Part shown: positions 13,344 through 64,000 of the stretch, in pieces
Position numbering within the stretch: position 1 is the stretch's first letter
How the letters are laid out: each line of letters opens with the position of its first letter
Origin: a virus
DNA: 64,000 nucleotides
IMG/VR virus record: IMGVR_UViG_3300020034_000005
Location: 26,319 to 90,318 of that record
Reading direction: 5' to 3' (one strand)
Program-made: the position numbers and the translations under genes
Notes under the pieces: model-generated
What the model was told of the DNA's origin: nothing
What the model saw: only the letters and a program-made list of their open reading frames with translations
Databases searched by the model: none

Positions 13344-14758
13344 TGGACGCCTACTGGGAGGACACGGACGCCGGGATCACCCTGTACCTCGGCGACTGCC
13401 TCACCGTGCTGCCCACCCTGGCCGACGCGTCCGTGGACTCCATCGTCACCGACCCGCCCTACGGGTTGACCGAGTTGGCAGCCGCGACGGTTCTGTCAGC
13501 GATAGCCGCATGGATGGCAGGCGACCGGACGCACGTGCCGGATGGGCGCGGGTTCATGGGCCGCGAGTGGGATCGTTTCGTGCCACCGCCTGGTGTGTGG
13601 GACGAGTGCCTACGGGTCCTGAAGCCGGGCGGTCACGTGCTGGCGTTCGCTGGTGCCCGCACCGTGGACCTGATGACGCTGTCGATCCGCATCGCCGGGT
13701 TCGAGATCCGCGACAGCATCGACTGGATCTACGGCAGTGGCTTCCCGAAATCACACGATGTTTCCAAGGCCATCGACAAGGCGGCCGGGGCGCAGCGCGA
13801 GGTAGTAGGGGCAAGCGCGCATAGCGCTAACCGGTCGGCCGGTTCCTGGCAGGCGGACGGCCGGGCCCCTACGAGAATGGCGAAAGGCAACGAGGGGGAA
13901 CGCCAGATCACCGCCCCGGCCACCGCCGATGCGGCCCGCTGGGACGGGTGGGGCACGGCACTCAAGCCCGCCCACGAGCCCATCGTTCTCGCCCGTAGGC
14001 CGCTCTCCGGGACCGTCGTCGTGAACGTCCTTCAGCACGGCACCGGGGCCCTCAACATCGACGACTGTCGGACCGTCGCCGGGCAGGACTACCGGCAGAA
14101 GTGCGCGTCCGTGGTGGGCATCGACAGTCCCCGCAACGGCGACACCGGCGGCGAACGGACCGGGGCCCGGGAGGACTCCGCGCACGTTGCGGGCCGTTGG
14201 CCGACGAACGTGATCCTCACCCACCCGCCGCTCCTCGATGACGACGGGCAGGTCGTGGGAGACGCGTGCGCAGACGGGTGCGTACCCGGCTGCCCCGTCG
14301 CGGAGATGGACGCGCAGAGCGGGGGCAGCACCAGCGCAGCAAAGGGCAAGGCCGGGGGCGCCTTCAAGTCCACGAGCCTGTACGCGCAGGACGCGACCTC
14401 GCGCGGCATGGCCCGGACCGAACGCCCGACACACGGCGACAAGGGCGGCGCATCCCGCTTCTTCACCGTCTTCCGCTACGAGGCGAAGGCCCCGGCCTCA
14501 GAGCGTCCCCGGCTGGCGGACGGCACCGCGCACACCACGGTCAAACCGCTCGCCCTGATGCGGTGGCTGATCCGGCTCGTCACCCCGCCCGGCGGAGCCG
14601 TCCTCGATCCGTTCGTCGGCTCCGGCACCACGCTGGAAGCGGCCCTCATCGAAGGGTTCCCCGCCATCGGTATCGAGCGCGAAGCCGACCACGCCGAACT
14701 GTGCGTGACCCGGCTCGCCAAGCCCATCACGTCGACCCTCTTCGGCGCCACCCCCTGA
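13343..14758 (+). CDS. Site-specific DNA amino-methyltransferase (471 aa)
   Basis: Transfers a methyl group from S-adenosylmethionine to an exocyclic amino group of A or C. The catalytic motif DPPYG sits at 37-41 and the AdoMet motif DPFVGSGTT at about 420-430, so the order is beta-class (catalytic first). The region between about 140 and 380 is an insertion with several Cys (DACADGCVPGCPVAEMD) and is probably the target-recognition part. No restriction gene is adjacent, so it is a solitary phage-type enzyme that could protect the DNA or alter expression. It closes the early operon and is followed by a hairpin at 14761-14802. Confidence 0.9.
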   Translation: MDAYWEDTDAGITLYLGDCLTVLPTLADASVDSIVTDPPYGLTELAAATVLSAIAAWMAGDRTHVPDGRGFMGREWDRFVPPPGVWDECLRVLKPGGHVLAFAGARTVDLMTLSIRIAGFEIRDSIDWIYGSGFPKSHDVSKAIDKAAGAQREVVGASAHSANRSAGSWQADGRAPTRMAKGNEGERQITAPATADAARWDGWGTALKPAHEPIVLARRPLSGTVVVNVLQHGTGALNIDDCRTVAGQDYRQKCASVVGIDSPRNGDTGGERTGAREDSAHVAGRWPTNVILTHPPLLDDDGQVVGDACADGCVPGCPVAEMDAQSGGSTSAAKGKAGGAFKSTSLYAQDATSRGMARTERPTHGDKGGASRFFTVFRYEAKAPASERPRLADGTAHTTVKPLALMRWLIRLVTPPGGAVLDPFVGSGTTLEAALIEGFPAIGIEREADHAELCVTRLAKPITSTLFGATP

Positions 14759-14760
14759 CC

Positions 14761-14802
14761 GGGCGCGCTGTCGCGGATGTCACCGACCCCCACAGCGCGC
14801 CC
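14761..14802 (+). terminator. Terminator after the first methyltransferase
   Basis: Perfect 11-bp stem GGGCGCGCTGT (14761-14771) with ACAGCGCGCCC (14792-14802), two bases after the stop. It separates the early operon from the VWA gene. Confidence 0.7.
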
Positions 14803-14838
14803 TCACCACGTACCGCACCCGCCGAGGACAAGTCGGCG

Positions 14839-14860
14839 GGCGCCCACCCAGCACCCCAAC
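14839..14860 (+). repeat. 22-base repeat, copy 1 (copy 2 at 28223-28244)
   Basis: The sequence beginning GGCGCCCACCCAGCA is shared with 28223-28244 with one mismatch in 22. Each copy lies after a methyltransferase gene and its hairpin and just before the ribosome site of the next gene. Confidence 0.6.
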
Positions 14861-14872
14861 AAGGAGATCACC

Positions 14873-15604
14873 GTGTTCCGTAAGACCCCCAGCGCCCCGC
14901 TCCCCACCCCGACCAGCACCGGTCCGGCGATCAGCTTCGACAAGGTGCCCGCCGGCCTCGTCAACCTGACCAAGACCGCCGCCGTCAGCCTGGAGAAGTC
15001 CGGGCTCACCGGGCAGCGCGCCGCCGTATACCTGGTCCTCGACCACTCCGGGAGCATGACCAGCTTCTACCGCGACGGGTCAGTGCAGCGCCTCGCCGAG
15101 CAGGCGCTCGGCCTGTCCGCGAACCTCGACGACGACGGCACCGTCCCCATCGGCTACTTCGGATCGACCGCCGAGCCCATGCTCGACGCCCGCCTCGACA
15201 ACTACGCGGGGATCGTCGACCGCACCCACCCCGCGGTCCGCTGGGGGTCCACCAACTACGTGGCCGCCATGCAGGCCGTCATCGACGAGCACCAGCGGTC
15301 CGGTGCCACAGACCCCGCGTTCGTGATCTTCCAGACGGACGGGTCCCCCGACGACCGTGGCGCAGCCGAGCGGATGCTCCGTGACGCCTCCCGGCTGCCG
15401 ATCTTCTGGGCGTTCGTCGGGTTCGGAAACAACATCCACTTCCTGGAGAAGCTCGACGACCTTCGCGGCAGGGCTGTCGACAACGCGTCGTTCTTCCACG
15501 CCGCGAACCCGCACCAGGTGACGGACGCCGACCTGTACGACGGCATCACGCACGAGTACGCGGGCTGGCTCGCCGCAGCGACGGCCGCCGGAATCGTCGC
15601 CTGA
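14873..15604 (+). CDS. VWA-domain protein (243 aa)
   Basis: Start at GTG 14873 with AAGGAG. A von Willebrand A domain with a complete metal site: D57-x-S59-x-S61 in DHSGSM, a Thr near VRWGSTNY, and a later Asp in FQTDGSPDD. This type resembles the VWA domain of TerF/TerY-like stress proteins and binds a partner protein through a divalent metal. No ATPase or MoxR partner gene is next to it. It is bounded by terminators on both sides (14761-14802 and 15660-15696), so it is a transcription unit of its own. Role in the element unknown. Confidence 0.85.
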   Translation: MFRKTPSAPLPTPTSTGPAISFDKVPAGLVNLTKTAAVSLEKSGLTGQRAAVYLVLDHSGSMTSFYRDGSVQRLAEQALGLSANLDDDGTVPIGYFGSTAEPMLDARLDNYAGIVDRTHPAVRWGSTNYVAAMQAVIDEHQRSGATDPAFVIFQTDGSPDDRGAAERMLRDASRLPIFWAFVGFGNNIHFLEKLDDLRGRAVDNASFFHAANPHQVTDADLYDGITHEYAGWLAAATAAGIVA

Positions 15605-20344: not shown

Positions 20345-21318
20345 CCACCGCAACCAACGAACCGCCCGCACACGGGACCTACGCCCGCGGCAACGGCGCC
20401 CCCGGCTACCGACCGCCGTGCGACTGCCCGCCCTGCCGCAAAGCCCGGCTGCGGACCAAGAAGCACAACAAGGCCATGCGAGACCTCGGCAAGGGCGCCC
20501 GCGTACCGGCAGACCAGGCCCGCACCCGACTCCAAGCCCTCTGCCAGACCATGACGTGGGACCAGATCGCCGCGGCCACCGGCTGCGAACCCGGCAACCT
20601 CCGCCTGATCAGCTCGGGCAGGCGGGCCGCGATCAACCGCAGCACCCAGAACAAGATCCTCGCCGTGGCACCGCAGCCCCCCAGCGCGCGCGGCAAATAC
20701 GTCGACGCCACCGGAAGCCGCCGCCGACTCCAAGCCCTCCGCGCACTCGGCTACTCCGCCCGCCACATCGCCGACATCGGCGGGTTCGCCACCAGCGAGA
20801 GCCGCGTACACACCATCTGCGCCACCCGCCAGCCCACCGTCCGCCACCACCTGGCCGCGAAGATCACCGCCGCCTACACCGTCCTCGCCGGAACACTCCC
20901 GCCGCCCAGCGCCGGAACCACCATCGCCCGCAACTACGCCGCGAAACAGGGCTGGGCACCGCCCGGGGCCTGGGACAACATCGACGACCCGGCCGCCGTC
21001 CCCGACTCAACAGGGCACTGCGGCACCGACCGAGGCTGGTGGACCCACCGCAATACACACCTCCCCGTCTGCCAGCGGTGCGAGGCCGCCCACCAGGAGT
21101 GGAAGCGGGACCACCAGCACCTGGCCAGGACCGAGTTCATGAAGGCCCTCACGGCCGCCCGCTCCGCCGCCTCCCACCGCGGCGCCGACATTGCCGACGA
21201 CGGCCGCGAACTCATCCGCCACGGCTGCGACTACGACACCGCCGCCGCCCGCATCGGCGTCACCCGCCAACACCTCCAACAAGAACTCCAACGCCACCCC
21301 GAAGGAGCCGCAGCATGA
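20341..21318 (+). CDS. Tandem HTH DNA-binding protein (325 aa)
   Basis: N-terminal HGTYARGNGAPGYRPPCDCP with PCRKARLR is a Cys-rich module seen in actinophage DNA-binding proteins. Two related helix-turn-helix units follow: about 57-112 (RLQALCQTMTWDQIAAATGC) and about 123-185 (RLQALRALGYSARHIADIGG); both begin with the same RLQAL. A second Cys group and an HTH (YDTAAARIGVTRQHLQQEL) close the protein. Likely a transcriptional regulator or replication accessory. ATGA overlap with the methyltransferase downstream. Confidence 0.75.
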   Translation: MTTATNEPPAHGTYARGNGAPGYRPPCDCPPCRKARLRTKKHNKAMRDLGKGARVPADQARTRLQALCQTMTWDQIAAATGCEPGNLRLISSGRRAAINRSTQNKILAVAPQPPSARGKYVDATGSRRRLQALRALGYSARHIADIGGFATSESRVHTICATRQPTVRHHLAAKITAAYTVLAGTLPPPSAGTTIARNYAAKQGWAPPGAWDNIDDPAAVPDSTGHCGTDRGWWTHRNTHLPVCQRCEAAHQEWKRDHQHLARTEFMKALTAARSAASHRGADIADDGRELIRHGCDYDTAAARIGVTRQHLQQELQRHPEGAAA

Positions 21319-23003
21319 GCTACCGCAACGACGACGACGCGCTCACCGTCATGGACTGGTTCTGCGGGGCCGGCGGGTCTTCCCAGGGCATGCACTCGGT
21401 GCCCGGGGTGCGGGTGGAGCGGGCCGCGAACCACTGGGCCAAGGCCATCGAGTCGCACGCAGCGAACTTCCCCCTCGTCGACCACTACCGCGGCGACATC
21501 CGCGAGGCCCCGGTCGAGCGGTGGCCCGTCACCGACATCTTCTGGGCCAGCCCCGAGTGCCCGCAGTGGTCGAACGCCCGCGGCAAGAAGCGGGACTTCG
21601 CGAACACCCTGCAGGGCGACCTGTTCGGCGACGGCGCCCCCTCCGAAGAGGTCGAACGCTCCCGCGCCCTCATGGAGGAAGTCCCCATGTACCTGCGCGG
21701 GGTGCAGCAGCGCGGCGGACTCGTCAAGGCGGGCGTCGTCGAGAACGTCGTCGACGTCCGGGCCTGGGACCAGTGGGACCGGTGGATCGGCGAGATCAAG
21801 AAGCTCGGGTACGAGACCCGCACCATCGCCCTGAACTCCATGCACGCCGACCCGCGCACCGTCCACCAAGCACCCCAGTCCCGCGACCGCCTGTACGTCG
21901 CCTACTGGCACCAGTCCCTGGGCCGCACCCCCGACTGGAACAAGTGGCTCCGCCCGCGCGCCTGGTGCACCGGCTGCCAGGAATGGGTGCGCGCCGTCCA
22001 GGTCTTCAAGGACCCCACCCGCGACATGGGCCGCTACCGCCAGCAGTACGTCTACCGCTGCCCTGAGGTGAAGTGCCGCAACCAGATCGTCGAACCCTCC
22101 ACCCTGCCCGCCGCCGTCGCCATCGACTGGAACCTCCCCGGCCAGCGCATCGGGGACAGGGCCAAACCGCTCGCCGACAAGACCCTCGCCCGCATCCAGG
22201 CCGGCCTCGACAAGTTCGCCCGCCCCATGGTCGTCCCCGCTGGAGGGACCTGGCGCAACGACCCGGTGCCGCTCGACCAGCCCATGCCGACCCGCACCAC
22301 CCGGGAGAACGACGGCCTCGCCATACCGCCCTTGCTCATCCCTGTTGAAGGACGGGACGGGAAGGAGCCCGCCTCCGCGAACAACCCGCTCCGCACGCAG
22401 ACCGCCCGCAACGAAACCGGCCTGGCCTGGCTGCCATTCATGGTCACCATGCGCGGCGGCGGCGACCAGCTCCGCGGTAAGTCCATCGGTGAGGCGCTCG
22501 GCACGGTCTCCGCGAACGGCAACCACCACGGGCTCGTCGCCCCGAACGTTCCCGCCATGGTCATGCGGAACAACGGCTCCAAAGGCGACGGCGGCGAACA
22601 CTGCACCAGCGCCGCCGACTACCTCCGCACCATGACGACAGCCGGCCACCAGTCCCTCATCACCTGGGAGCACCTCCTCGTCCCCTACTACGGCACCGGA
22701 ACCGCGCGCCCCGTCGCCGACCCGATCGGCACCCTGTCCACCCGCGACCGGTACGCCCTCGTCAAGGGCGACGTCGACATCAACGACGTGCTCTTCCGGA
22801 TGCTGGAGCCCCACGAGATCGGCCGGGCCATGAGCTTCGCCGACGAGTACGTGGTCCTCGGCAACAAGCGGGAGAAAGTCCGCCAGTACGGCAACGCCGT
22901 CACCCCGCCCGCCGCCGAAGTCATCGTCGCCGCCCTCGTCGAAGCCATCACCGGCGAAGAGATGTCCCGGCACGCGGCGCCCGAGCTGGCAGCCGCCGCA
23001 TGA
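21315..23003 (+). CDS. C5-cytosine DNA methyltransferase (562 aa)
   Basis: Makes 5-methylcytosine. Motifs in order: I FCGAGG (16-21), IV ECPQW with nucleophile C82 (usual PCQ is here ECPQ), VI ENV (143-145), VIII QSRDRLY (188-194), then a large target region, and IX/X near the C-terminus (LEPHEIGRAMSF, QYGNAVTPPAA). A zinc ribbon of C218, C221, C249 and C254 interrupts the usual order and is unusual. At 562 residues it is longer than typical bacterial enzymes because of inserts at about 200-470. No cognate endonuclease is adjacent. Last gene of its coupled run. Confidence 0.92.
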   Translation: MSYRNDDDALTVMDWFCGAGGSSQGMHSVPGVRVERAANHWAKAIESHAANFPLVDHYRGDIREAPVERWPVTDIFWASPECPQWSNARGKKRDFANTLQGDLFGDGAPSEEVERSRALMEEVPMYLRGVQQRGGLVKAGVVENVVDVRAWDQWDRWIGEIKKLGYETRTIALNSMHADPRTVHQAPQSRDRLYVAYWHQSLGRTPDWNKWLRPRAWCTGCQEWVRAVQVFKDPTRDMGRYRQQYVYRCPEVKCRNQIVEPSTLPAAVAIDWNLPGQRIGDRAKPLADKTLARIQAGLDKFARPMVVPAGGTWRNDPVPLDQPMPTRTTRENDGLAIPPLLIPVEGRDGKEPASANNPLRTQTARNETGLAWLPFMVTMRGGGDQLRGKSIGEALGTVSANGNHHGLVAPNVPAMVMRNNGSKGDGGEHCTSAADYLRTMTTAGHQSLITWEHLLVPYYGTGTARPVADPIGTLSTRDRYALVKGDVDINDVLFRMLEPHEIGRAMSFADEYVVLGNKREKVRQYGNAVTPPAAEVIVAALVEAITGEEMSRHAAPELAAAA

Positions 23004-23076: not shown

Positions 23077-23994
23077 ATGCCTTGGGCCAAGTTCGACGAC
23101 CGGTTCCCGATGAACCGCAAGGTGCGTCCGCTCTCCGACCGCGCCTTCCGCCTGTACGTCTCCGCGATCTGCTGGTCCGCCGAGAACCTCACGGACGGCT
23201 TCGTCGCCGAGACCGAACTGCGCCTCGTCGCCGACATCCGGGGAGCCAAAGGTGCGGCCGCGGAGCTCGTTGACGTCGGCCTGTGGGTGCCGTCGACGCG
23301 CGTTCGTGCCGCGTTCGTGCCGCCGTCGCGTCAAGTTCGTGCCGCCGTCGTGTCGAAGTCGCGTCAAAGTCGCGTCGAAGTTCGTGCCGCGAACAACGAC
23401 ACGAAAGTACGCGGTTGGGAGATCCACGACTACCACGAGTACAACCCCACCGCCGAGCAGGTTCGCGCCGAGCGTGAGGCCAAGTCTGCACGTCAGCAGC
23501 GGTGGCGGAAGAAGTCCCGGGGCAACGGACCTGAGCCGGAACCGCCTGCCGACGACCAGGATGTAGACGCATCTACAGATGCGTCTCAAGACGCGTCGCG
23601 AGACGGTGCCGGAGACGCTGCCCCGCGCACGCGCGTTCCCGACCCGACCCGTACCCGTACCCCTTCTATGGCTGATGTAGGTGGGGAGGGTGCAGGTAGT
23701 AGTGCGCGCGAGTCCGCGCCGCCCGGCGAAGCCCCCATCGACGACGCAGGCTTCGCCGTCACCGACACGATGCGCCGCTGGGCGAACCTCACCTTCGGGG
23801 CGGCCGTCGACATCGAGCACTCCACGCAGCAGTTCGTCAGCCACTACCGATCCACCGGCGTCGACCGCCGCTCCTGGCCCGACGCCTGGCAGAAGTGGAT
23901 CAGGGATGACGCGAAGAAGACCGCCGACCGACAGCAGCGTTCCCATCTCCGCGCCGTCGCCGGCCAGAGCCCCGAAGAACGAGGGATCTTCTGA
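23077..23994 (+). CDS. Replication initiator-like protein (305 aa) with internal repeats
   Basis: The N-terminal winged-helix region (about 1-75: WAKFDDRFPMNRKVRPLSDR, then LYVSAICWSAENLTDGFV) matches phage replisome organisers of the DnaD/lambda O kind. An acidic linker follows (about 160-225), then a C-terminal helical domain (about 235-305, WPDAWQKWIRDDAKK) probably contacting the helicase. Between residues 76 and 105 the DNA carries iteron-like repeats (23302-23390), as the lambda origin lies within gene O. The helicase gene follows with TGATG overlap. Confidence 0.8.
   Translation: MPWAKFDDRFPMNRKVRPLSDRAFRLYVSAICWSAENLTDGFVAETELRLVADIRGAKGAAAELVDVGLWVPSTRVRAAFVPPSRQVRAAVVSKSRQSRVEVRAANNDTKVRGWEIHDYHEYNPTAEQVRAEREAKSARQQRWRKKSRGNGPEPEPPADDQDVDASTDASQDASRDGAGDAAPRTRVPDPTRTRTPSMADVGGEGAGSSARESAPPGEAPIDDAGFAVTDTMRRWANLTFGAAVDIEHSTQQFVSHYRSTGVDRRSWPDAWQKWIRDDAKKTADRQQRSHLRAVAGQSPEERGIF
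23291..23395 (+). repeat. Iteron-like repeats, candidate replication origin
   Basis: GTTCGTGCCGC occurs four times at 23302, 23313, 23335 and 23380, at offsets of 11, 22 and 45 bases, near-multiples of one helical turn. CGTCGCGTCAAG-like boxes are interspersed (GTCGCGTC at about 23326, 23358 and 23370). The encoded peptide has matching V-R-A-A repeats. The position inside an O-like gene next to a helicase supports an origin. Confidence 0.55.
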
Positions 23995-25322
23995 TGACCA
24001 CCGACCTCGAACCCACCGACGACCTCGACACCCCGCGCACCCCACCCCAGGACATCTCCGCCGAGATCACCGCGCTGGGCTCCAGCCTCTTCAGCCGCCC
24101 CGCCCTGCGCGCCGTCCTCGACCGCCTCGACCCCGCCGCCTGCTACCAGCCCGCCCACACGCTGATCCTCACCGCCATGGGCGAGATGGCCGCGGCCGGC
24201 AAGGCAGTCGACCCGATCACCCTGTCCAAGCACCTTGGCGACACCGGACGCCTCACCCGGGCCGGCGGGCCCTCGTACATCCACCAGCTGGCCAGCTGGA
24301 CATTTACCGCGACCAGCCCCGCGAACGCCGCCGAGTACGCGGACATCGTCATGGACCGTGCGCAGCGCCGGGCCGTCATCAGTCTCGCCACCGACCTCAG
24401 CGAAACCGCCTACGGCACGACCACTGCAACGCCCGAGCTCGTCGAGCGGGCCGTCACCCAGATCCGCGAACTCCGCGACCAGGGCGCCGCAGCCGAAGAA
24501 CTGCCCACCGAGGACATTCTCGACTTCGTCAACCACGAGGACACCTACGACTGGGTCGTCCCCGGCCTCCTCGAACACCAGGACCGGCTGATCCTCACCG
24601 CGTCCGAAGGCGGCGGGAAGTCCACCCTGCTGCGCCAGATCTCCGTCACCCTCGCCGCGGGCCTCCACCCGTTCCGGACCGGGGAGACCATCGAGCCCGT
24701 CCGCGTCCTGACCCTCGACTGCGAGAACGGGGCGCCCGCCTCCCGCCGCAAGTTCCGGCCCATGCTCGCCGCTGCCGAGTCCGTCGAACGGCCCGTCAAG
24801 CGCGGCCAGTTCCACATCGAGTGCCGCCCCCAGGGCCTCGACCTGACCCGCCCCGCAGACCGGGCGTGGCTGATGCGCCGCATCGAGAAGATCAAACCCC
24901 AGGTGCTGATCATCGGCCCCGTCTACCGGCTGCACGCCGGGAACCCCAACGACGAAGAGCTCGCCCGCAAGGTGTCCGTCGTGATCGACGAGGCCCGCGC
25001 CACCGCCGGATGCGCCGTCCTCATGGAAGCCCACGCCCCCCACGGCAACGGCATCGGACCCCGCAGCCTGCGCCCCCTCGGCAGCTCGCTGTGGATGCGC
25101 TGGCCCGAGTTCGGGTTCGGCCTGCGACCCGTCGACGACGAGAAGTCCGCACAGAACCACGAAGGCGCCCGTGGCCGGGCCGTCGTCCCCTGGCGCGGTA
25201 TGCGCGACGAACGCGACTGGCCCAAGTTCATCAAGCAGGGCATCGCCTGGCCGTGGACCTCCTACCAGCCCATCGACGCCGACCCGTACACGGGCTACTC
25301 CCCGACAGGAGCGATCTGGTGA
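23994..25322 (+). CDS. DnaB/RepA-like replicative helicase (442 aa)
   Basis: N-terminal DnaB-type helical domain (about 22-125) joined to a RecA-fold ATPase of the RepA/AAA_25 kind. Walker A is 203-211 (ASEGGGKST, with Gly where the usual second residue varies), Walker B is near D242 (VLTLDCEN), and a sensor strand VLIIGPVYRLH lies near 305. It is probably loaded at the origin by the upstream initiator. The C-terminus (about 380-442) is rich in Trp and Pro. Could alternatively act as a primase-helicase loader, but the DnaB N-domain favours helicase. Confidence 0.85.
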   Translation: MTTDLEPTDDLDTPRTPPQDISAEITALGSSLFSRPALRAVLDRLDPAACYQPAHTLILTAMGEMAAAGKAVDPITLSKHLGDTGRLTRAGGPSYIHQLASWTFTATSPANAAEYADIVMDRAQRRAVISLATDLSETAYGTTTATPELVERAVTQIRELRDQGAAAEELPTEDILDFVNHEDTYDWVVPGLLEHQDRLILTASEGGGKSTLLRQISVTLAAGLHPFRTGETIEPVRVLTLDCENGAPASRRKFRPMLAAAESVERPVKRGQFHIECRPQGLDLTRPADRAWLMRRIEKIKPQVLIIGPVYRLHAGNPNDEELARKVSVVIDEARATAGCAVLMEAHAPHGNGIGPRSLRPLGSSLWMRWPEFGFGLRPVDDEKSAQNHEGARGRAVVPWRGMRDERDWPKFIKQGIAWPWTSYQPIDADPYTGYSPTGAIW

Positions 25323-26041: not shown

Positions 26042-27297
26042 CCACCATCTGCGCCCGCTGCAAGGGCACGAAGATCGACCCGGTGTTCGCCGCCATGGAG
26101 GACCACGGCAACGGTGATGTCCGGGAGGTCCCGGAGCCGTGCGCGGACTGCCAGGTCCCCGCCCCGGCGCCTGAGTTCGGCACTGACGGCTGTACGTGTG
26201 TCCCGTGGACCCGGCAGGGCGGCGAGCCCCGGCTGTGCGGGCCGAACGACACCGTCGACATGATCGGCGGCTGGCATTTCGGGAGCGACTGCCCGCACCA
26301 CGCGCCGCGCAAGCCGTCGGACTCCGATCACCGCCTGGCCCTGTCGGAGGCGTTGGGTCTCGGGACGGGTGCGCCGTGGGATGCGATCGAGGAGCGGGCG
26401 GCGGAGTTGACGGCGGCCGCCCTCACCGCACCCGCCGACCGGGCGCACCGCAGAGCGTGCCCGTCCCGTGAGCCGCTGCTCGACGTCCAGTGCGCGAAGG
26501 AGGCCGGGCACGAGACGCACTCGGACCGGCCGGGGCGGATCTGGTATCCCGCACCCGCCGAACGGGCGGCCGTCAAGATGGGGGCCACCATCACGCGGCT
26601 GCGGGCTGAACGCGCCGAGCTCAACCGCCAGCTGGCCTGCATTCGTGGGGACATGCGGGACATGGAGGCCCACCTGCGCGAGCAGGACGCCGAGTTCGAG
26701 CGCCTCCGCGGGGGCCGGGCGGCTGTGCTGGCGGATGCCGAGGAACTGGCCGAACTCGACCGCGAGGGCGCGGAACTGGTCTGCGTGGACACGTGCGGCA
26801 GCTGCGACGCCTGCGGGATGGAGCCCTTCGGCACCCCCGCAGAGGGCTGGCGCGAGGCGGCCCGCTTCCTGCGCCGCACGGACCGCGACTCGCCGGACTT
26901 CCTCGGCGCGATCCGGGGGGCCCGCCTCATCGAGACCGAGCTCCGCCGCCGGGCCGACGAGGCACAGCAGACCAAGCCCGACGCGGATGATCTGACCGCC
27001 GAGGAGAACCGCGATCTCGCCGACGACCTTGGCCTCCAGCTGTACCGCGCGCAGGACGCCCTGGCGTTCGTCGCCGAATGCTGCGACATCGCCGACCGGG
27101 AACAGCGGCCTGTCACCACGGGCGTCGTGCGGGAGTGGTTGAAGGGCGCGCGCTGCGGACGGGAGTTGCGGGCCGACGAGGCGCAGCAGGGCGAGGCGGA
27201 GCGACCTGTCCAGCACGCTCCCGGGATCGCGATCCGGTGCCCTGCCTGCCGCTCCAAGGGCTACTCGGTCTGCCTGGCCGAGGGGGCGCAGCGATGA
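26038..27297 (+). CDS. Large zinc/coiled-coil hypothetical protein (419 aa)
   Basis: ATGA overlap. Starts with a DnaJ-like zinc motif (C-A-R-C-K-G-T-K, then C-A-D-C), has a second Cys/His region (about 50-90), a long coiled coil at about 180-245 (LRAERAELNRQLACIRGDMR), a CGSCDACGM motif (about 258-266) and a terminal C-P-A-C-x-S-K-G. Zinc motifs at both ends around a coiled coil suggest a scaffold or nucleic-acid binding role. Related in style to the 30570 protein. Not recognised. Confidence 0.7.
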   Translation: MTTICARCKGTKIDPVFAAMEDHGNGDVREVPEPCADCQVPAPAPEFGTDGCTCVPWTRQGGEPRLCGPNDTVDMIGGWHFGSDCPHHAPRKPSDSDHRLALSEALGLGTGAPWDAIEERAAELTAAALTAPADRAHRRACPSREPLLDVQCAKEAGHETHSDRPGRIWYPAPAERAAVKMGATITRLRAERAELNRQLACIRGDMRDMEAHLREQDAEFERLRGGRAAVLADAEELAELDREGAELVCVDTCGSCDACGMEPFGTPAEGWREAARFLRRTDRDSPDFLGAIRGARLIETELRRRADEAQQTKPDADDLTAEENRDLADDLGLQLYRAQDALAFVAECCDIADREQRPVTTGVVREWLKGARCGRELRADEAQQGEAERPVQHAPGIAIRCPACRSKGYSVCLAEGAQR

Positions 27298-28187
27298 GCG
27301 AGCAGCCGCCCTACTACCAGGACGAGCAAGTGACGCTCCTCCTCGGCGACGCGCTGGAGCAGCTGCGTACCCTCCCCGACGGGTCCGTGGACTGCATCGT
27401 CACCAGCCCGCCCTACTACGGGCTCCGCTCATACGGCATCGACGGGCAGTACGGGCTGGAGGCAACGCTTCCGGAGTATGTCGCCACCATGCGTGCCGTA
27501 TTCACCGAAGCGCGCCGGGTGTTGACCGATGACGGAACGCTGTGGTTGAACCTCGGCGACTCCTACAGCGCTGGCGGGCAAGGCGGCAACCGCGGCGGCA
27601 GGCTCATAGGCGGCGCACACCTGGATCGCGTCCCCGGTCGAACCCGGGTCCCAGGCTTCGCCCCGAAAAACCTGCTCATGATTCCGGCGCGGGTAGCCAT
27701 GGCGCTCCAGGACGACGGATGGGTCCTCCGTAACGAGATCGCCTGGCACAAGATCAACGCCAAGCCTGAGCCGGTCCGTGACCGCATGTCCAGCAGGCAC
27801 GAGAAGCTCTATCTGCTGACCAAGAGCCAGCGGTATGCGTTCAACCTTGACGCGGTCCGGGAGCCCTACACCTGCCCCAACGACTCGCGGCTGAATCCGG
27901 AGCAGGTGGCTCGGGGCCGTAATCCCGGCGACGTGTGGGCCATCCCTACGGGTTCTTATCCGGGAGCCCATGAGGCTGTGTTCCCCATCGACCTGCCGCT
28001 GCGCTGCATTCGGGCTGGTTGCCGTCCTGGCGGAACCGTGCTGGATCTGTTCTCCGGGTCTGGGACGACGGGCGCTGCAGCCGTACAGCTCGGATGCCAG
28101 TACGTCGGTATCGACCTCAACGCGGCGTACCACGACCTCGCCAGAGAGCGGTTCACGCAGGGCGTTCTCGCGTTCGACACCCCGTGA
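27294..28187 (+). CDS. N4-cytosine/N6-adenine DNA methyltransferase (297 aa)
   Basis: Beta-class DNA methyltransferase: catalytic TSPPY at 37-41 and AdoMet motif FSGSGTT at about 253-259 with downstream VGIDLN. TSPPY is usual for N4-cytosine enzymes, so m4C is the favoured product. A loop with Gly-rich SAGGQGGNRGG (about 91-101) lies between. No restriction partner is seen. ATGA overlap with the previous gene; a terminator follows. Confidence 0.9.
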   Translation: MSEQPPYYQDEQVTLLLGDALEQLRTLPDGSVDCIVTSPPYYGLRSYGIDGQYGLEATLPEYVATMRAVFTEARRVLTDDGTLWLNLGDSYSAGGQGGNRGGRLIGGAHLDRVPGRTRVPGFAPKNLLMIPARVAMALQDDGWVLRNEIAWHKINAKPEPVRDRMSSRHEKLYLLTKSQRYAFNLDAVREPYTCPNDSRLNPEQVARGRNPGDVWAIPTGSYPGAHEAVFPIDLPLRCIRAGCRPGGTVLDLFSGSGTTGAAAVQLGCQYVGIDLNAAYHDLARERFTQGVLAFDTP

Positions 28188-48587: not shown

Positions 48588-48821
48588 ATGAAGACCAGGG
48601 CCCGCATCAACTGGATCGCCGGAACCGTCGCCAACTTCGACAACTACGGGTCCCTTTGGGGCTACGAGGCGGTTGAGCAGGCCGAGATCGGCATCGCCAA
48701 CGAGCGCGCCGCCGGCACCGTCGTCGACGAGTGGAACGTCACCGATCGCGACGGCCGGCCGATGCGCATCGTCCGCATGGCCGACCCCGAGTTCCTGAAC
48801 ACCATCGCCGTCTTCGCCTGA
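48588..48821 (+). CDS. Hypothetical protein (77 aa)
   Basis: ATG after GAGGAGACGCC. Mixed alpha/beta (INWIAGTVANFDNYGSLWGY, VTDRDGRPMRIVRMADP). Followed by a short hairpin. Unrecognised. Confidence 0.65.
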   Translation: MKTRARINWIAGTVANFDNYGSLWGYEAVEQAEIGIANERAAGTVVDEWNVTDRDGRPMRIVRMADPEFLNTIAVFA

Positions 48822-48829
48822 CGCACCCA

Positions 48830-48853
48830 GGGCCCGGTCCGCCGGCCGGGCCC
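48830..48853 (+). terminator. Short hairpin after the 48588 gene
   Basis: GGGCCCGG (48830-48837) with CCGGGCCC (48846-48853), 8-base loop. Confidence 0.5.
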
Positions 48854-48883
48854 GCCGATCCACCGCACTCAGGGGGGAACCTG

Positions 48884-49612
48884 ATGATCGTCTCGAACCG
48901 CATCCGCCGCCAGCCGCCGAGGATCCATGCGACTGCCCAGCTGATCGGCGGCCGTTCCCACCAGTGCGACGTCACCGCCACCTACACCCACAACGGTGCC
49001 CGCGCCTACACCCTCCTCGACGGCATCGGCAGCTCCGACGAGATCCGCGACTGGACGCGTACCGCCGCCCGACAGGTCGCCCGTGCTGCGGCCCGCCGCG
49101 GCGACGCCGAAGCCGGGCTGCGGGCCGTGTACAACCGGTACGCGGCCGACCCGGAACGCCACGACGTGTGGGCGGACCTGCCGGACGCGTGCGCGGTCGT
49201 CGCAGTCCACACCCCCGGCCTACTGACCGTCGCCTGGTGTGGTGACGTCCGGGCTTACGTACTCGCCGGCGGGACCCTGCACCGGCTCACCAACGACCAC
49301 AACATGCGGCGCGTCATCGGTGGGTCCCGGAACCGGGTCACGTCGTGGCTCGGCTCCGAACTCACCGAGGAGCAGGTCCTCGACCAGGTGGGGCATCCGG
49401 CGATCGAAACCGCCACCCGGCACCCGGTGCGGGAGCGGCTGATCCTCGCTTCGGACGGGGCTTACGAACCGCTCGAGGACAACGGGTGCCGTCTCCCTGA
49501 CTACCTCATCGGCACACCTGCCGAAGCGGCTGCCGACTTCACCGAGTCCGCTATCGCTTTCGCCGGCGGGCACGCCGACAACGCCACTGTCCTCGTCGCC
49601 GACCTCGGCTGA
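48884..49612 (+). CDS. PP2C-like protein phosphatase (242 aa)
   Basis: A PPM/PP2C fold with metal-site residues: DGIG at 46-49, GDVRAYV (about 121-127), ASDGAYEPL (about 190-198) and HADNATVLVADL (about 228-239). The usual first motif is shortened (YTLLDGIG instead of a longer V-D-G-H/G), so activity may be limited. No kinase is encoded next to it. It would act on serine/threonine phosphoproteins. Confidence 0.78.
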   Translation: MIVSNRIRRQPPRIHATAQLIGGRSHQCDVTATYTHNGARAYTLLDGIGSSDEIRDWTRTAARQVARAAARRGDAEAGLRAVYNRYAADPERHDVWADLPDACAVVAVHTPGLLTVAWCGDVRAYVLAGGTLHRLTNDHNMRRVIGGSRNRVTSWLGSELTEEQVLDQVGHPAIETATRHPVRERLILASDGAYEPLEDNGCRLPDYLIGTPAEAAADFTESAIAFAGGHADNATVLVADLG

Positions 49613-49653
49613 GGCGGCCTGCCAGAACGCCACCGATAGGAGAAATCGTCACC

Positions 49654-50400
49654 ATGGAACGCATTTTCAACACCCGCACGAGCGGCCCGGTCGTACTGGT
49701 CCTGCCGATCGGAACCGCCCGAGTGAAGGTCGACCAGACCGTCAAGACCGCGACCATCCGTCTCCACACCGTCGACAGTGAGGGTCCGTCCGTCGACGCG
49801 ATCAACCGCGCCGCCGCTGGCACTGTCGAAGGCCTCAGCGTCACCGTCTCCAAGATTCCGGGCAGTGGCGGCGGCGTGACCATCATCAACGGCGGTCGAG
49901 GCGGCAGCTACAGCAGCGTCGTCTCCTCCGGGGGCGGCACCGTTATCGTCAACGGGCAGGTCATCAGTGGAAGCGGCATCTCCAACGGCATCACCGCCGA
50001 GGTGACCATGCCCCCCGGTACGGCTCTGAGGTTCCGATCCGAGTCCGCCAACCTGCACGCCAGCGGACCGCTCCCGTCGCTGGATGCAACCAGCATCTCG
50101 GGCGACATCGAAGCAGGCGTCGTCGGTACCGCATCAGCCAAGACCACGTCCGGGGATGTCGACATCGACGTCGTCACGCACCAGATCGTCGCGACCAGCG
50201 TCTCCGGCGACATCGAAGTCGGCTCCTACAGCGGCGAGAGCGCTGTTCTGTCCTCCGCGTCGGGCGACATCGCGCTGTCGGCTACCCGTGAGGCCAGGGG
50301 GGCCCTCTCCGCCTCTTCCATCTCCGGGGATGTCCGACTGCGCGGAGCCGCTCACCTCAACCCGCAGGCCTCCAGCGTTTCCGGTCGGGTTCGTGCGTGA
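49654..50400 (+). CDS. DUF4097-like beta-repeat protein (248 aa)
   Basis: Repeated strand-turn units with S-G-D at the turns (ATSISGDIEAGVV, TTSGDVDIDVV, TSVSGDIEVG, SSASGDIALS, SSISGDVRL) make a right-handed beta helix from about 140 to 248. This is the DUF4097 putative adhesin plan. There is no signal peptide or anchor, so it is probably cytosolic or peripheral. It follows the phosphatase gene closely. Confidence 0.85.
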   Translation: MERIFNTRTSGPVVLVLPIGTARVKVDQTVKTATIRLHTVDSEGPSVDAINRAAAGTVEGLSVTVSKIPGSGGGVTIINGGRGGSYSSVVSSGGGTVIVNGQVISGSGISNGITAEVTMPPGTALRFRSESANLHASGPLPSLDATSISGDIEAGVVGTASAKTTSGDVDIDVVTHQIVATSVSGDIEVGSYSGESAVLSSASGDIALSATREARGALSASSISGDVRLRGAAHLNPQASSVSGRVRA

Positions 50401-56769: not shown

Positions 56770-57359
56770 CCGCCATCGACTACGACTTCGAGTTCCTGGA
56801 GAACGGCCGGACCATCGAGGTGATCTCGATCGGCATGGTCGCCGATGACGGCCGCGAGTACTACGCCGTCAACTCCGACGCCCCGTGGGATCGCATCAAG
56901 GGCCACCAATGGCTGATGGACAACGTCTGGCCGCACCTTCCCCTCCGGGGCCACAAGAGCGGCCTCGCCACCGTGGGCGACGGAATCGTCACGAAACTCC
57001 TTGAGCCCGGCGTTGTCGACACCAGCGACTCACGGGTCAAACCGCACTGGGTAATCGCCAACGAGGTCCGCGACTTCATCCAGGCCGCCCAGGAGGACGT
57101 GGATCAATCGACTGTGGAGCTCTGGGCGAACTACGGCGCCTACGACCACGTCGCGCTCGCCCAACTGTGGGGCCCGATGATCAGGCTCCCCAAGGGTGTG
57201 CCGATGTTCACCAACGACATTCAGCAGGAAGCTCGCCGTCTCCGTGTCGGCTGGGATGAGCTGCCGAAGCAGGAGTCCGGTGAGCACAACGCTCTCGCTG
57301 ACGCCCGTCACAACCAAGTCGTCCGGCGCTGGCTCGCGAGCAGGCAGGAGGCGTCGTGA
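56766..57359 (+). CDS. RNase AS-like 3'-5' exonuclease (197 aa)
   Basis: DEDDh fold: D7 and E9 (YDFEF), D127 (GAYDHVAL), H174 and D179 (HNALADARHN) are all present. The opening FLENGRTIEVISIGMVADDG and GAYDHVALAQLWGP closely follow mycobacterial RNase AS, a polyadenylate-specific exoribonuclease. GTG start. Unusual in a phage-type sugar cluster. Confidence 0.88.
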   Translation: MTAIDYDFEFLENGRTIEVISIGMVADDGREYYAVNSDAPWDRIKGHQWLMDNVWPHLPLRGHKSGLATVGDGIVTKLLEPGVVDTSDSRVKPHWVIANEVRDFIQAAQEDVDQSTVELWANYGAYDHVALAQLWGPMIRLPKGVPMFTNDIQQEARRLRVGWDELPKQESGEHNALADARHNQVVRRWLASRQEAS

Positions 57360-57952
57360 CCGCCGCTGACATCATCACCGCCTGGGATCAGGCAGCCCCG
57401 GACGCGATCCACCCGACACGCCGGATATCCGAGGACGCCTACTGGCAGTCCGGTGAAGCCCAGGCCAGCATGCTCGCCACCGTCATCCCCGACGGGGCGA
57501 AGGTCCTCGACTTCGGTTGTGGTGACGGCCGGGTCGCCATCCCCATGGCCGCCCTCGGCTACGAGGTCACCGCCGCCGATTCGTCGCAGCGCATGCTCGA
57601 CCGGCTCACCGAACGCGCACCCGACGTCACCACCGTGCACGCCGCAGCAGACGGGCTCGCCGGACACCTCGGCCGCCGGAAGATGGACGCCGTGTACTGC
57701 CTGGCCGTCCTCATCCACCACAGCTACGCGGACTGCCTCGACGTCATCGGCCGGCTGCGGGCGGCGACGAAGCTCGGCGGGATCCTCGTCCTCGACTGGC
57801 CCGTCTCCGACCGGCCCGAGGAGGGAACTGTCTGGTTGGACGTCACCACCTGGTCGGCGCAGCAGCAGGCCGACGCCTGCGCGCGGATCGGGCTGGAGCC
57901 CATCGACAACGGCCTGCCGTGGGGCGTCTACCGGGCCGTGAAGGCGGGCTGA
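57356..57952 (+). CDS. Class I SAM-dependent methyltransferase (198 aa)
   Basis: AdoMet motif VLDFGCGDGRVAIPMA (about 43-58), Asp at the end of strand 2 (VTAADSSQRMLD), and a motif-IV strand AVYCLAVLIHH. Small-molecule type; no target domain. GTGA overlap with the exonuclease. May modify a sugar or the product of the cluster. Confidence 0.88.
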   Translation: MTAADIITAWDQAAPDAIHPTRRISEDAYWQSGEAQASMLATVIPDGAKVLDFGCGDGRVAIPMAALGYEVTAADSSQRMLDRLTERAPDVTTVHAAADGLAGHLGRRKMDAVYCLAVLIHHSYADCLDVIGRLRAATKLGGILVLDWPVSDRPEEGTVWLDVTTWSAQQQADACARIGLEPIDNGLPWGVYRAVKAG

Positions 57953-57960
57953 CGACACGC

Positions 57961-58548
57961 ATGGCCGAATGGAAGCTGTTCGCAGGCAGAGATCCTCACG
58001 TCGCCACCCTCGATTTTCACCACGACCGTGAACGCGCACCCCACCTCGAACAGGCCGACCACCGAGCCCGCTTGAAACGCTGCGCTGGACTGATCCGGAA
58101 GGTCGGGCCCGCCAGCGTTGTCGACCTCGGATGCGGTGACGGCGGCCTCCTCAGCCTCATCAAGGACGTCCCGTCCTGGGGCTACGACTTCCAACCCAGC
58201 AACGAACCAGCCTGGGCCGAGCGAGGCGTCAGCGCCGAGCGCCGCGACGTCTTCAACACCCGCGACGTACCACGCTGGGGCCAACTCGCAGTCCTCACCG
58301 AAGTCCTCGAACACGTCGCCGACCCTCACGACACCGTCGAATGGGTCGCCCGCAACGCGTCCTGGATCGTCGCCTCATCGCCCCGACACGAGACCGCCGA
58401 CTTTCACGGCGACTGCCACGCATGGGCGTGGGACGAAGCCGGCTACCAAGCGCTGATCGAGCCGCATTTCGAGATCACCACTCATATCGGCCTGGACTGG
58501 TCGCAAATCATCGTCGCAAGGAGTCGCCGTCATGGCGCTGTGGGCTGA
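57961..58548 (+). CDS. Second class I methyltransferase (195 aa)
   Basis: VVDLGCGDGGLLSLIKD motif (about 47-63), LTEVLEHVADPHD (about 116-128) and a WDEAGYQALIEPHF segment; similar to Methyltransf_23-type O-methyltransferases of sugar pathways. Not a duplicate of the previous gene, which differs outside motif I. Overlaps the next gene by 17 bases. Confidence 0.85.
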   Translation: MAEWKLFAGRDPHVATLDFHHDRERAPHLEQADHRARLKRCAGLIRKVGPASVVDLGCGDGGLLSLIKDVPSWGYDFQPSNEPAWAERGVSAERRDVFNTRDVPRWGQLAVLTEVLEHVADPHDTVEWVARNASWIVASSPRHETADFHGDCHAWAWDEAGYQALIEPHFEITTHIGLDWSQIIVARSRRHGAVG

Positions 58549-58777
58549 AGACCAGGCTGGTAACTACCTCAACCTCGACCACTTCTTCAAGGTCACCGCG
58601 AACGATGAAGGCGCCGGTACGTTCCGCCTTTACGCGCTCCTCGCCGAGGAGACGACCACGACCTCCGAGGACTACGTCAAGCTCGCCGGAACCTGGTCCT
58701 CGCTGGCCGACGCACGCGAAGCGTTTCGTCGGCTTGCACGCGCCGAGGATCCGTCCACCTACGGCGACCTGGACTAG
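58532..58777 (+). CDS. Hypothetical small protein (81 aa)
   Basis: ATG after AAGGAGTCGCCGTC. Contains AGNYLNLDHFFKVTANDEGA and EETTTTSEDYVKLAGTWSSL, a compact beta-alpha pattern. Unrecognised. Confidence 0.65.
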   Translation: MALWAEDQAGNYLNLDHFFKVTANDEGAGTFRLYALLAEETTTTSEDYVKLAGTWSSLADAREAFRRLARAEDPSTYGDLD

Positions 58778-58780
58778 CCA

Positions 58781-59662
58781 GTGCGCGTCCTTCTAACCGG
58801 TGCCTCCGGATTCGTAGGCCGTCACCTGCACCGCGCGCTCCTGGACCGGGGCGATTTGGTCCTCGGGATCGATCTCAACGCCACCCTGCTGGCCCGCAGC
58901 GGTGACGCCCTCGACTTCTTCCGTACCGACGACCGCTCCTGGGACCTCGCCATCCACGCGGCGGCAATCGTCGGCGGGCGGGCCAGCATCGACGGCTCCC
59001 CGCTCGGAGTCGCAACGAACCTGGCGCTCGACAGCTGGTACTTCCGGTGGCTGGTCCGCAACAAGATTCCCCGCGCCGTGTACTTCAGCAGCAGCGCCGC
59101 GTACCCGGTCGACCTGCAGCAGCCGGGCGAGATCCACCGGCTCGTCGAGGACGACATCGACTACGAGCGGCCGGGACGGCCTGACTCGACCTACGGGCTC
59201 GCCAAGCTGGCCGGTGAACAGCTCTGCCAGTACGCCGAAGCTGAGGGCACCCGCATGACGGTCCTGCGCCCGTTCTCCGGGTTTGGAGAGGACCAGGACG
59301 AGGCGTACCCGTTCCCCGCGTTCATCCGGCGCGCGCGCGAGCGGCAGGATCCGTTCGAGGTGTGGGGCGACGGCGGCTCAACGCGGGATTGGATCCACAT
59401 CAGCGACCTCGTCGGCGCGACCCTCGCCGCCGTCGACCAGGACGTGCACGGACCGGTCAACCTCGGGTGGGGCAGAGCCACGAGCTTCGATGAGCTTGCC
59501 CAGTACGTCACCCAGGCCGCCGGGTACAGCCCGGTCATCAAGCACCGGGCGTCGGCGCCACAGGGCGTCCACCACCGGGTGTGCGACCCCAAGCAAATGC
59601 TCGCGTTCTACAACCCGCAGGTGACCTTGGAAGAGGGCATCCGGCGGGCACTCACAGGGTGA
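58781..59662 (+). CDS. NAD-dependent sugar epimerase/dehydratase (293 aa)
   Basis: Extended SDR with Rossmann motif G7-A-S-G-F-V-G13, S103-S105, and catalytic Y138-x3-K142 (STYGLAK), plus LRPFSGFGEDQDEAYPF and a C-terminal substrate domain (DWIHISDLVGATLAAV). It probably makes or inverts a nucleotide sugar used by the GT of the cluster. GTG start 4 bases after the previous stop. Confidence 0.92.
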   Translation: MRVLLTGASGFVGRHLHRALLDRGDLVLGIDLNATLLARSGDALDFFRTDDRSWDLAIHAAAIVGGRASIDGSPLGVATNLALDSWYFRWLVRNKIPRAVYFSSSAAYPVDLQQPGEIHRLVEDDIDYERPGRPDSTYGLAKLAGEQLCQYAEAEGTRMTVLRPFSGFGEDQDEAYPFPAFIRRARERQDPFEVWGDGGSTRDWIHISDLVGATLAAVDQDVHGPVNLGWGRATSFDELAQYVTQAAGYSPVIKHRASAPQGVHHRVCDPKQMLAFYNPQVTLEEGIRRALTG

Positions 59663-61950: not shown

Positions 61951-62240
61951 GCGGCAGGTGGGCCGGTTCGGACCGAGTGAAGCGACTACCCCCGGGCTGG
62001 CCAAAGATCCGCGCGAAGATCTTGGAACGCGACCCGATCTGCATGGTCTGCCACGTGAGGCCGTCGGGGTTCTGCGATCACATCGTGGCCATGGCCGATG
62101 ATCACCGACCTGAAGGTCTTCAGGGACTTTGCGGTCCCTGTCATGATCAGAAATCTGCACGCGAAGGTGCAGCCGCAGCCAAAGCGAAAGGCTGGCCGAC
62201 GCGAGCCCGCCCAGGTGAGCGGCACCCCGGACTCCTGTAA
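61947..62240 (+). CDS. Small HNH endonuclease (97 aa)
   Basis: LPPGWPKIRAKILERDPICM, a C-M-V-C pair, CDHIVAMADD (catalytic His-Asp) and LQGLCGPCHDQKS give a phage HNH fold of the kind found beside terminase genes. Basic C-terminus. ATGA overlap. Packaging-related nicking is possible; a homing role is the alternative. Confidence 0.85.
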   Translation: MSGRWAGSDRVKRLPPGWPKIRAKILERDPICMVCHVRPSGFCDHIVAMADDHRPEGLQGLCGPCHDQKSAREGAAAAKAKGWPTRARPGERHPGLL

Positions 62241-62250
62241 GGCGGTGACC

Positions 62251-62466
62251 ATGCCCCGCTACCTGATCGTCCACAACGAGCGGCGCGGCGCCGACGTCCT
62301 CCTCGAAGACGACGCCCTCACCGTCGAGTTCACCCCCGACTGGGCCATCTTCCGAGATGAAGCCGGTGCCTGCTTCGCCGTACCGCGTGAGCAGATCCGC
62401 AGCGTCATGCGGGTAGACGAACCGACAGAACCCGAAGACCAGGAGCCCGCGCCGCAGAAGGAGTGA
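62251..62466 (+). CDS. Hypothetical protein (71 aa)
   Basis: ATG at 62251. YLIVHNERRGADVLLEDDAL and a C-terminal acidic stretch. Beta-rich. Unrecognised. Confidence 0.6.
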   Translation: MPRYLIVHNERRGADVLLEDDALTVEFTPDWAIFRDEAGACFAVPREQIRSVMRVDEPTEPEDQEPAPQKE

Positions 62467-62726
62467 CCGCCATGGCCAACCGAGCCAAGAGCAGCCGGCG
62501 CATCGTCCGCGAAGGCAGGCGGTATTGGAGCGACCAGCCCACGTCCAGGGGCAAGGCGGCCGGCATCGGGTACGGGCTCCGGACCGGATCGTTCACACGC
62601 TGCGTATCCCGCGTGCAGCGCTTCATGGGGCCGCGGGCGAAAGGCTACTGCGCGCTCAGGTTCAAGGAATCGACTGGCGTATGGCCAGGCAGTAAAGCCA
62701 ACCGCAGCCGAACCCGCAAGCGCTGA
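62463..62726 (+). CDS. Hypothetical basic protein (87 aa)
   Basis: GTGA overlap (ATG 62472 is an alternative). Very basic (SSRRIVREGRRYWSD; NRSRTRKR); might bind DNA. Unrecognised. Confidence 0.5.
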   Translation: MTAMANRAKSSRRIVREGRRYWSDQPTSRGKAAGIGYGLRTGSFTRCVSRVQRFMGPRAKGYCALRFKESTGVWPGSKANRSRTRKR

Positions 62727-62828: not shown

Positions 62829-63677
62829 ATGGCCCAAGCTACACGCCCAGACTTCATCACCTGCGCCCGCTGCGGCACCGACAAGCAGGTTGGACAGCGC
62901 GGTCCCGTCCCGACCTACTGCTCGGGCGCTTGCCGAGCAGCCAGCACCCACGACGCCCGCCTTGAGATCCAGTGCGCCCACTGTGGCAGCGCCGTGAGCG
63001 CGAGACCTGGGACGTCATACTGCTCGCCGCGGTGCAGGAACGCCAGCACCCACGAGCGGGCACGCGCGGACGGCAGGTATGACCAAGCACTCCGCGACAG
63101 GCGAGAAGCGACGCGCGCACGACAGGCGGCCAATGCTCGCCCCTGTCCGTACTGCTCAGCGCCGATGCTGTCTCCCCGCGCGAAGCAGTGCGGTGCGCCG
63201 TGCTGTAAACGGCAGTTCAATGCCGACCGCATGCGCGAATGGAACCGGGCCTACCGCCACGAACACGGCGCCTGGTACGCGGGTCGCAACTACCCCGAGG
63301 GACAGCGCGCCTACGAGAAGCGCCGGCGCCAGGAGAAGGGGCACTGGCGGAGCCTGTATCCGGAGCGCGCCGCAGCCTACGATGCGCGCCGACGTGCGCT
63401 CGTGGAGCAGGCTCGCACCACGGAGACGTTCGCCCCTATCGACGTGCATACGAGGGACGACTGGACCTGCAGGCTGTGCTCGCTGCCCATTGATCCTGCA
63501 GTCGCCTGGCCTGACCCGATGAGTCCGAGCGTTGACCATGTCATCCCCTTGTCGCGAGGTGGCGCACACGCGATGGGCAACGTGCAGAGCGCCCATCTTG
63601 GGTGCAACAGCAGCAAAGGCAACAGACTGTTGAGCGAACTGATTCTTGATCTTCAAGCCAAAGCGCTGAGCAAGTAA
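62829..63677 (+). CDS. Zinc-ribbon HNH endonuclease (282 aa)
   Basis: Three N-terminal zinc ribbons of the C-x2-C-x(n)-Y-C-S-x2-C-R type (C-A-R-C; C-A-H-C; C-P-Y-C), a charged coiled region (about 120-195), then an HNH domain: DDWTCRLCSLPID, SVDHVIPLSRGGAHAMGNVQ, HLGCNSSKGN. Complete nuclease residues (D-H, then H/N). Stands just before a GATC-rich non-coding tract; in phages such genes lie next to terminase or cos. Confidence 0.85.
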   Translation: MAQATRPDFITCARCGTDKQVGQRGPVPTYCSGACRAASTHDARLEIQCAHCGSAVSARPGTSYCSPRCRNASTHERARADGRYDQALRDRREATRARQAANARPCPYCSAPMLSPRAKQCGAPCCKRQFNADRMREWNRAYRHEHGAWYAGRNYPEGQRAYEKRRRQEKGHWRSLYPERAAAYDARRRALVEQARTTETFAPIDVHTRDDWTCRLCSLPIDPAVAWPDPMSPSVDHVIPLSRGGAHAMGNVQSAHLGCNSSKGNRLLSELILDLQAKALSK

Positions 63678-64000
63678 CTTGAGGTCGACAGGCTAGGCGT
63701 GCCGCCCCTCACCCCCGAGGGGCAGGGCGTGGCGGCCGGGTAGGGTAGTGGGTCAGGTGCATGGTCATGGTCGTCGATGGTCATCTGCGTTAGGTGATCA
63801 ACGTTCGTGATCGTGAAGGAAGATCGAAGATCGATGATGAAGATCGATTCGAGTTGATCGAACAGTGATCGACCGAGCTTACGGATCTTGGGCAGAGATC
63901 AACACGGGAAGATCAACGATCATAAATCGGTGATCCAAACCGCAACTCTCCAGACCTGGGGGGAGATCCCCAAGGGTGATCTTCGGATATCGGACCCGTA
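63678..64000. other. GATC-rich non-coding tract
   Basis: No gene. GATC occurs 14 times in 63796-63981. Five are GATCGA (63822, 63829, 63842, 63856, 63867) and three are GATCAAC (63796, 63897, 63911). The tract is AT-richer than its surroundings. 63685-63740 holds a separate GC-rich hairpin-like stretch (CCCCTCACCCCCGAGGGGC) that may be the terminator of the HNH gene. The next gene is outside the window. Confidence 0.7.

Follow-up and report, generated by a model that had tools for sequence, protein, structure and literature searches.

A conserved, regularly spaced GATC array abuts the genome end of a putative temperate Streptomyces phage and is probably read by a protein other than the small terminase subunit

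The analysed window of 64,000 nucleotides covers bases 26319-90318 of virus record IMGVR_UViG_3300020034_000005 (90,318 bases), so that a GATC array close to its last base lies at the extreme right end of the record. The right arm of this phage genome contains the following features (window coordinates):

62098-62466, + strand: ORF co-inherited with the array
62472-62726, + strand: small basic protein (84 aa; phrog_6439), a near-constant right-arm neighbour and candidate array binder
62829-63677, + strand: zinc-finger HNH endonuclease (282 aa; Pfam HNH, PF01844, and PHROG HNH families)
63678-63795: non-coding DNA preceding the array; it contains GGTCATGGTC-like repeats and can be aligned with close relatives
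63796-63981: array of 14 GATC sites, mostly YGATCR/GATCRA, with 13-14 bp spacing (some 7 bp) and a conserved counterpart ahead of the cos cut in relatives
63955-63975: inverted repeat CCTGGGGGGAGATCCCCAAGG just before cosN, conserved in the alignment of relatives
63978-64000: predicted upstream (right-end) half of cosN, GATCTTCGGATATCGGACCCGTA (GATCTTC.GGATCGGGnCCGTAT^ in relatives, with the cut at ^), where the record terminates

All 14 GATC sites are placed in non-coding DNA; they start at positions 63796, 63809, 63822, 63829, 63842, 63856, 63867, 63884, 63897, 63911, 63918, 63932, 63965 and 63978 (final base, 63981), which gives successive distances of 13, 13, 7, 13, 14, 11, 17, 13, 14, 7, 14, 33 and 13 bp. 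The preliminary description of this DNA, which reported 14 sites in 186 bases and an excess beyond base composition, was correct on both points. In 20,000 shuffles of the tract's own bases GATC occurred 0.69 times on average and never more than 6 times, while the record-wide density predicts 1.27 sites (Poisson P = 1e-10 per window, approximately 1e-5 when corrected for all windows). The runner-up 183-bp windows of the 90,318-base record hold 6 sites, and GATC is modestly enriched across the whole 64,000 nucleotides (436 vs. 321 expected). The tract has a GC content of 50%, compared with 69% for the record, and this composition fails to explain the count. The GATCGA and GATCAAC subclasses proposed earlier are present (5/14 and 3/14 sites, respectively), but they cover only part of the array, and the regular 13-14 bp spacing had been overlooked.

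Two findings that would have spoken against a specific array, a similar density in other non-coding DNA and a gene across the tract, were sought. The tract is the densest of the 31 intergenic stretches that reach 150 b, as delimited by gene calls that are crude here as throughout the analysis, and it exceeds each of the other 30 more than twofold. No open frame spans it on either strand (short fragments only), and searches for RNA families and tRNAs found none. An explanation by simple repeats was rejected, since the inter-GATC segments differ between copies; perfect 7- or 14-bp GATC tandem repeats are common in many viral contigs.

Relatives were gathered via the large terminase subunit, yielding 80 viral contigs plus 35 contigs from sequenced hosts, with Streptomyces frequent among the latter; a direct search for DNA-level similarity to phage isolates found none. 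The left end of the record (L002) begins with ACACGCGACGG..GGGTCTGGGGATC and continues with the genes listed below (coordinates of the record), followed by portal and capsid genes, putatively named from their position and sequence:

153-761: primase-like ORF, between the cos cut and terS
775-1260: terminase small subunit, TerS (Pfam Terminase_7, PF25673)
1260-2891: terminase large subunit, TerL

A primase-polymerase-like ORF between the cut and terS is also carried by L046, L166 and L167, and probably by L095 and L056.

Judged by contig ends as given in the assemblies, 16 contigs, including the record, start at the identical base, 19 bp before the conserved GGGTCTGG, and the annotated genome of Gordonia phage Kuwabara starts at the same position, which indicates that the termini of the record are physical ends. 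Other relatives carry both ends joined, in the order array, inverted repeat (CCTGGGGG..CCCC), GATCGGGnCCGTAT^ACACGC..GGGTCTGGGG and terS. The CCTGGGGG..CCCC sequence recurs at the place of the inverted repeat in relatives, and Kuwabara has a similar repeat. The record is approximately one base short at this junction (..CCCGTA / ACACGC.., compared with CCGTATACACGC in the joined relatives). Two properties of a cos site were thus found, i.e., ends fixed at one base and terminase genes that become adjacent once the ends are joined, and we read the record as spanning one cos end to the other, with the junction as the cos site. The earlier suggestions of an array of binding sites and of a packaging site close to terminase genes that lie beyond the window agree well with this predicted position, the terminase genes lying at the opposite end of the record.

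The array is a conserved property of one group of cos sites. Twenty-one deduplicated loci share the upstream cos half GATCGGGnCCGTnT^, and their last 300 bp ahead of the cut contain a mean of 8.0 GATC sites against 2.2 expected; GATC ranks first in enrichment among the 256 tetramers (z 18), and the enrichment fades approximately 225-250 bp from the cut. No enrichment was found in 32 loci with other cos cores, e.g., GGGAAGGTGC^ (2.3 vs. 2.2 expected). Distances of 13-15 bp are preferred in the array loci, and a nearest-neighbour distance of 13 or 14 bp was counted 27 times vs. 8.9 in the null (0/2000). The sequence between the sites varies greatly in the alignment of relatives, and therefore only motif and spacing are kept, whereas the tract as such is not. 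The flanks of array sites favour YGATCR and GATCRA, top-strand GATCRA accounting for 41% of tract sites vs. 14% elsewhere. A pattern of four GATC sites at the array spacing is infrequent in ten Streptomyces genomes, and two of its occurrences there are these phage cos sites. Retention of the array is not universal, as shown by L056 and L047, which possess the upstream core yet have 1 and 4 GATC sites, respectively; nor is it a general requirement, since Streptomyces phages with other cos cores lack it. This evidence covers a single phage family (group A of an additional test set consisted mostly of contigs already used, L168, L170, L224 and L231, and was not counted as independent), and all array-bearing phages have one portal/right-arm family in common, so that linkage accounts for part of the association.

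The array was found together with the same upstream cos half beside three kinds of terminase: (i) the Terminase_7 small subunit, as in this record, (ii) a kind starting with MGTRGPIPKRSEER (L159, L160, L166, L167, L171 and L173), and (iii) phrog_1496 (L405). Arrays of 5-13 GATC sites occur in L160, L166, L167, L173 and L405, whose TerL is approximately 35% identical to that of the record, whose TerS has no clear match to that of the record and whose downstream cos half is different. The portal is 71-85% identical to that of the record wherever comparable, despite the exchanged terminase, and in a TerL tree the array is found in separate terminase clades. Where an ORF of 600-700 bp separates cos from terS, the array remains at cos (14 sites in the record, 9 in L046 and 14 in L095), and the 250 bp preceding terS contain 1-2 GATC sites in the record and L046. 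Since the array stays at cos and survives terminase exchange, it belongs to cos and does not depend on one particular small terminase; its inheritance follows the upstream cos half, not the small terminase. L405, L160, L166 and L167, compared with L002, illustrate modular swapping of the entire terminase module and the downstream cos half at cos, with portal genes that are still 75-85% identical.

The array abuts the genome end and is conserved, position-bound and regularly spaced in this phage family. In our main reading, to which we give a probability of approximately 0.78, this DNA forms the right-chromosome-end portion, upstream of the cut, of a cos packaging site in a temperate Streptomyces phage, and its reader is a GATC-binding protein distinct from TerS. 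Some such protein, of host or phage origin, probably reads the array and helps to recognise the genome end. Its copies would bind sites approximately every 14 bp and might form a nucleoprotein patch of approximately 200 bp beside cosN, marking the phage concatemer; the patch could then help the terminase, with the HNH protein, to cleave or to finish packaging at cos. TerS itself would read a conserved block approximately 20-30 bp downstream of the cut. TerS of HK97 contacts positions +15 to +29 on the downstream side of its cut (PMC11331095). In the present family GGGTCTGGG occupies this position whether or not a phage carries the array, and by analogy GGGTCTGGG is likely the TerS site. With the TerS site placed downstream of the cut, the upstream array needs a different reader.

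The preliminary description had also pointed out that the array follows an HNH gene. The HNH endonuclease is indeed next to cos here and is possibly a partner in cos cleavage, but the link is loose, as the gene is present in just 12 of the 22 array-core loci. The array as a homing site of the HNH gene was rejected, because the array occurs without that HNH gene; the HNH protein as a query against viral contigs gave no match.

Two candidates are the most likely binders, the host nucleoid protein Gbn and a small right-arm protein of the phage, and we do not decide between the two. The former, which would be the preferred reading with its binder named, makes the array a docking site for Gbn, acting like IHF at lambda cos or silencing phage DNA; we regard it as a tentative assignment. 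Gbn of Streptomyces (SCO1839) binds GATC with a preference for GATCWT, loads several copies on DNA with multiple sites, shows weaker binding to methylated GATC and leaves DNA unbent; its own promoter region contains 8 GATC sites, and Streptomyces coelicolor lacks Dam (PMC9239103). A host factor would account for the independence of terminase type. Of the 14 sites in this record 7 are GATCWT, which makes up 33% of array sites overall vs. 15.5% of the background, but the preference for GATCRA is stronger and is the main flank preference of the array. Moreover, related phages of Streptomyces hosts have no arrays, and a simple IHF-like role is doubtful for a protein that does not bend DNA. Gbn binding regions resemble the tract in being GATC-dense non-coding DNA in Streptomyces (PMC9239103), but the array lies at a phage cos, is regularly spaced and has GATCRA instead of GATCWT flanks. 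None of the papers searched links Gbn to phage packaging. In a more specific and still less probable form of this explanation, the array is a terminase-independent packaging mark, with the host chromatin protein Gbn reading unmethylated GATC, so that terminases are exchangeable and the label is kept.

The second candidate binder, to which we assign the same tentative standing as the Gbn docking site, is a small right-arm protein (62472-62726, or the ORF at 62098-62466) that would bind the array and recruit the terminase or protect the end. The 62472-62726 protein is encoded near the array in 21 of the 22 array-core loci vs. 3 of 32 others, accompanies terminase types I, II and III, and has strongly basic, K/R-rich tails in array phages, while the copies of L094, L018 and L024 are tail-less in the alignment; for the 62098-62466 ORF the respective numbers are 19/22 and 0/32. 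However, both genes belong to one right-arm block, and linkage alone may explain their co-occurrence with the array. Homologues of one of them are found in large phages of Gordonia and Microbacterium, in two cases under a match annotated as capsid maturation protease, which suggests a role in the virion, and the structure model is poor. Comparing gene content between records with and without the array brought up mostly shared structural and right-arm genes, and such shared blocks cannot by themselves name the binder.

Repeated sites are typical of terminase recognition, e.g., in lambda cosB, and in lambda the R sites lie on the cosB side. The resemblance of the array to such repeats, and its location beside terS and cosN, would fit a classical, cosB-like recognition site of the small terminase. 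We consider this unlikely, since the array persists with three small terminases lacking clear mutual similarity. Moreover, TerS of HK97 has its site downstream of the cut (PMC11331095), on the opposite side from the array. In addition, the modelled TerS appears to have no N-terminal HTH; this model has a pLDDT of 73 (moderate quality), and a fold search with it in the PDB returned nothing significant and no matching solved structure. The site shares with lambda cos (cosQ-cosN-cosB), a composite of approximately 200 bp combining the cleavage point with flanking recognition elements by the terminase genes (PMC4669245), its overall layout and genomic neighbourhood. It differs in that its repeats carry GATC and are placed on the cosQ side, upstream of the cut, and not on the terminase-gene side where the lambda cosB repeats bind terminase, and in being independent of TerS type. 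The HNH gene by cos and the likely TerS-binding block approximately 20-30 bp downstream of the cut recall HK97-type cos sites; the upstream GATC array is an additional element, not described for HK97 in the available part of that source (PMC11331095).

Slightly less probable again is an operator or silencer of the late (terminase) promoter. In most relatives the array precedes terS when the DNA is joined or in prophage form, and Gbn binding generally lowers expression (PMC9239103). Nevertheless, the array is kept at cos despite the 600-700 bp ORF separating cos from terS; it follows cos, not terS, which speaks against a terS operator.

A few genes located elsewhere in the window bear on the remaining proposals:

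13343-14758: N6/N4-type DNA methylase
20418-23003: C5 methylase
23077-23994: replication-initiator-like gene
23994-25322: DnaB
27078-28187: second N6/N4-type DNA methylase (phrog_67)

The window also encodes unusual cargo, comprising a TerF-like vWA protein (14777-15604), a PP2C phosphatase with a DUF4097 protein (48731-50400) and a methyltransferase block with an NAD-dependent epimerase (57356-59662).

Methylation control had been offered as another option, and packaging gated by adenine methylation of the array, as at P1 pac, is the least probable of the readings weighed here. The P1 pac site has seven TGATCA/G hexamers in 161 bp, is bound by PacA/PacB and requires Dam methylation (PMC10028697, PMC12707154). 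Both sites are GATC-centred hexamer clusters with similar YGATCR flanks at a DNA-packaging site; the P1-type hexamer is found at 61 of 147 array sites (41%) vs. 449 of 2392 background sites (19%), and the phage itself encodes two N6/N4-type methylases along with a C5 methylase. However, N6_N4, Dam and D12 methylases are absent from most array-bearing relatives, and methylation is not supported as a general explanation: across the 33 records examined, N6_N4 methylases occur in only two array-bearing records, this one included, Dam (PF05869) in none and D12 in one. Streptomyces coelicolor has no Dam (PMC9239103), and the ends are fixed at one base, unlike the variable ends of headfull packaging. 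The P1 site lies inside a terminase gene, whereas the array precedes a fixed cos end, has 14 sites at approximately 14-bp spacing and no consistent methylase, and persists across unrelated small terminases. The partition site and the origin proposed in the preliminary description found no support, as no ParA/ParB is present among the 40 larger proteins scanned with Pfam, the array position is the genome end, and the replication-initiator-like gene and DnaB are approximately 40 kb away.

How terminases choose phage DNA is known in detail for few phages only. An element of approximately 200 bp at cos, constant in position and spacing beside unrelated small terminases, points to a recognition layer outside the terminase, and it parallels the GATC hexamers of P1 pac in hosts without Dam. 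If the mark is read by Gbn, phages could swap terminases yet keep the same host-read label on the genome end. The defined ends together with the array could serve cos-based vectors for Streptomyces.

Non-identical GATC arrays with 13-14 bp spacing were also observed in two unrelated viral contigs (L395 and L424; GC 0.45), in non-coding DNA near terminator-like sequence.
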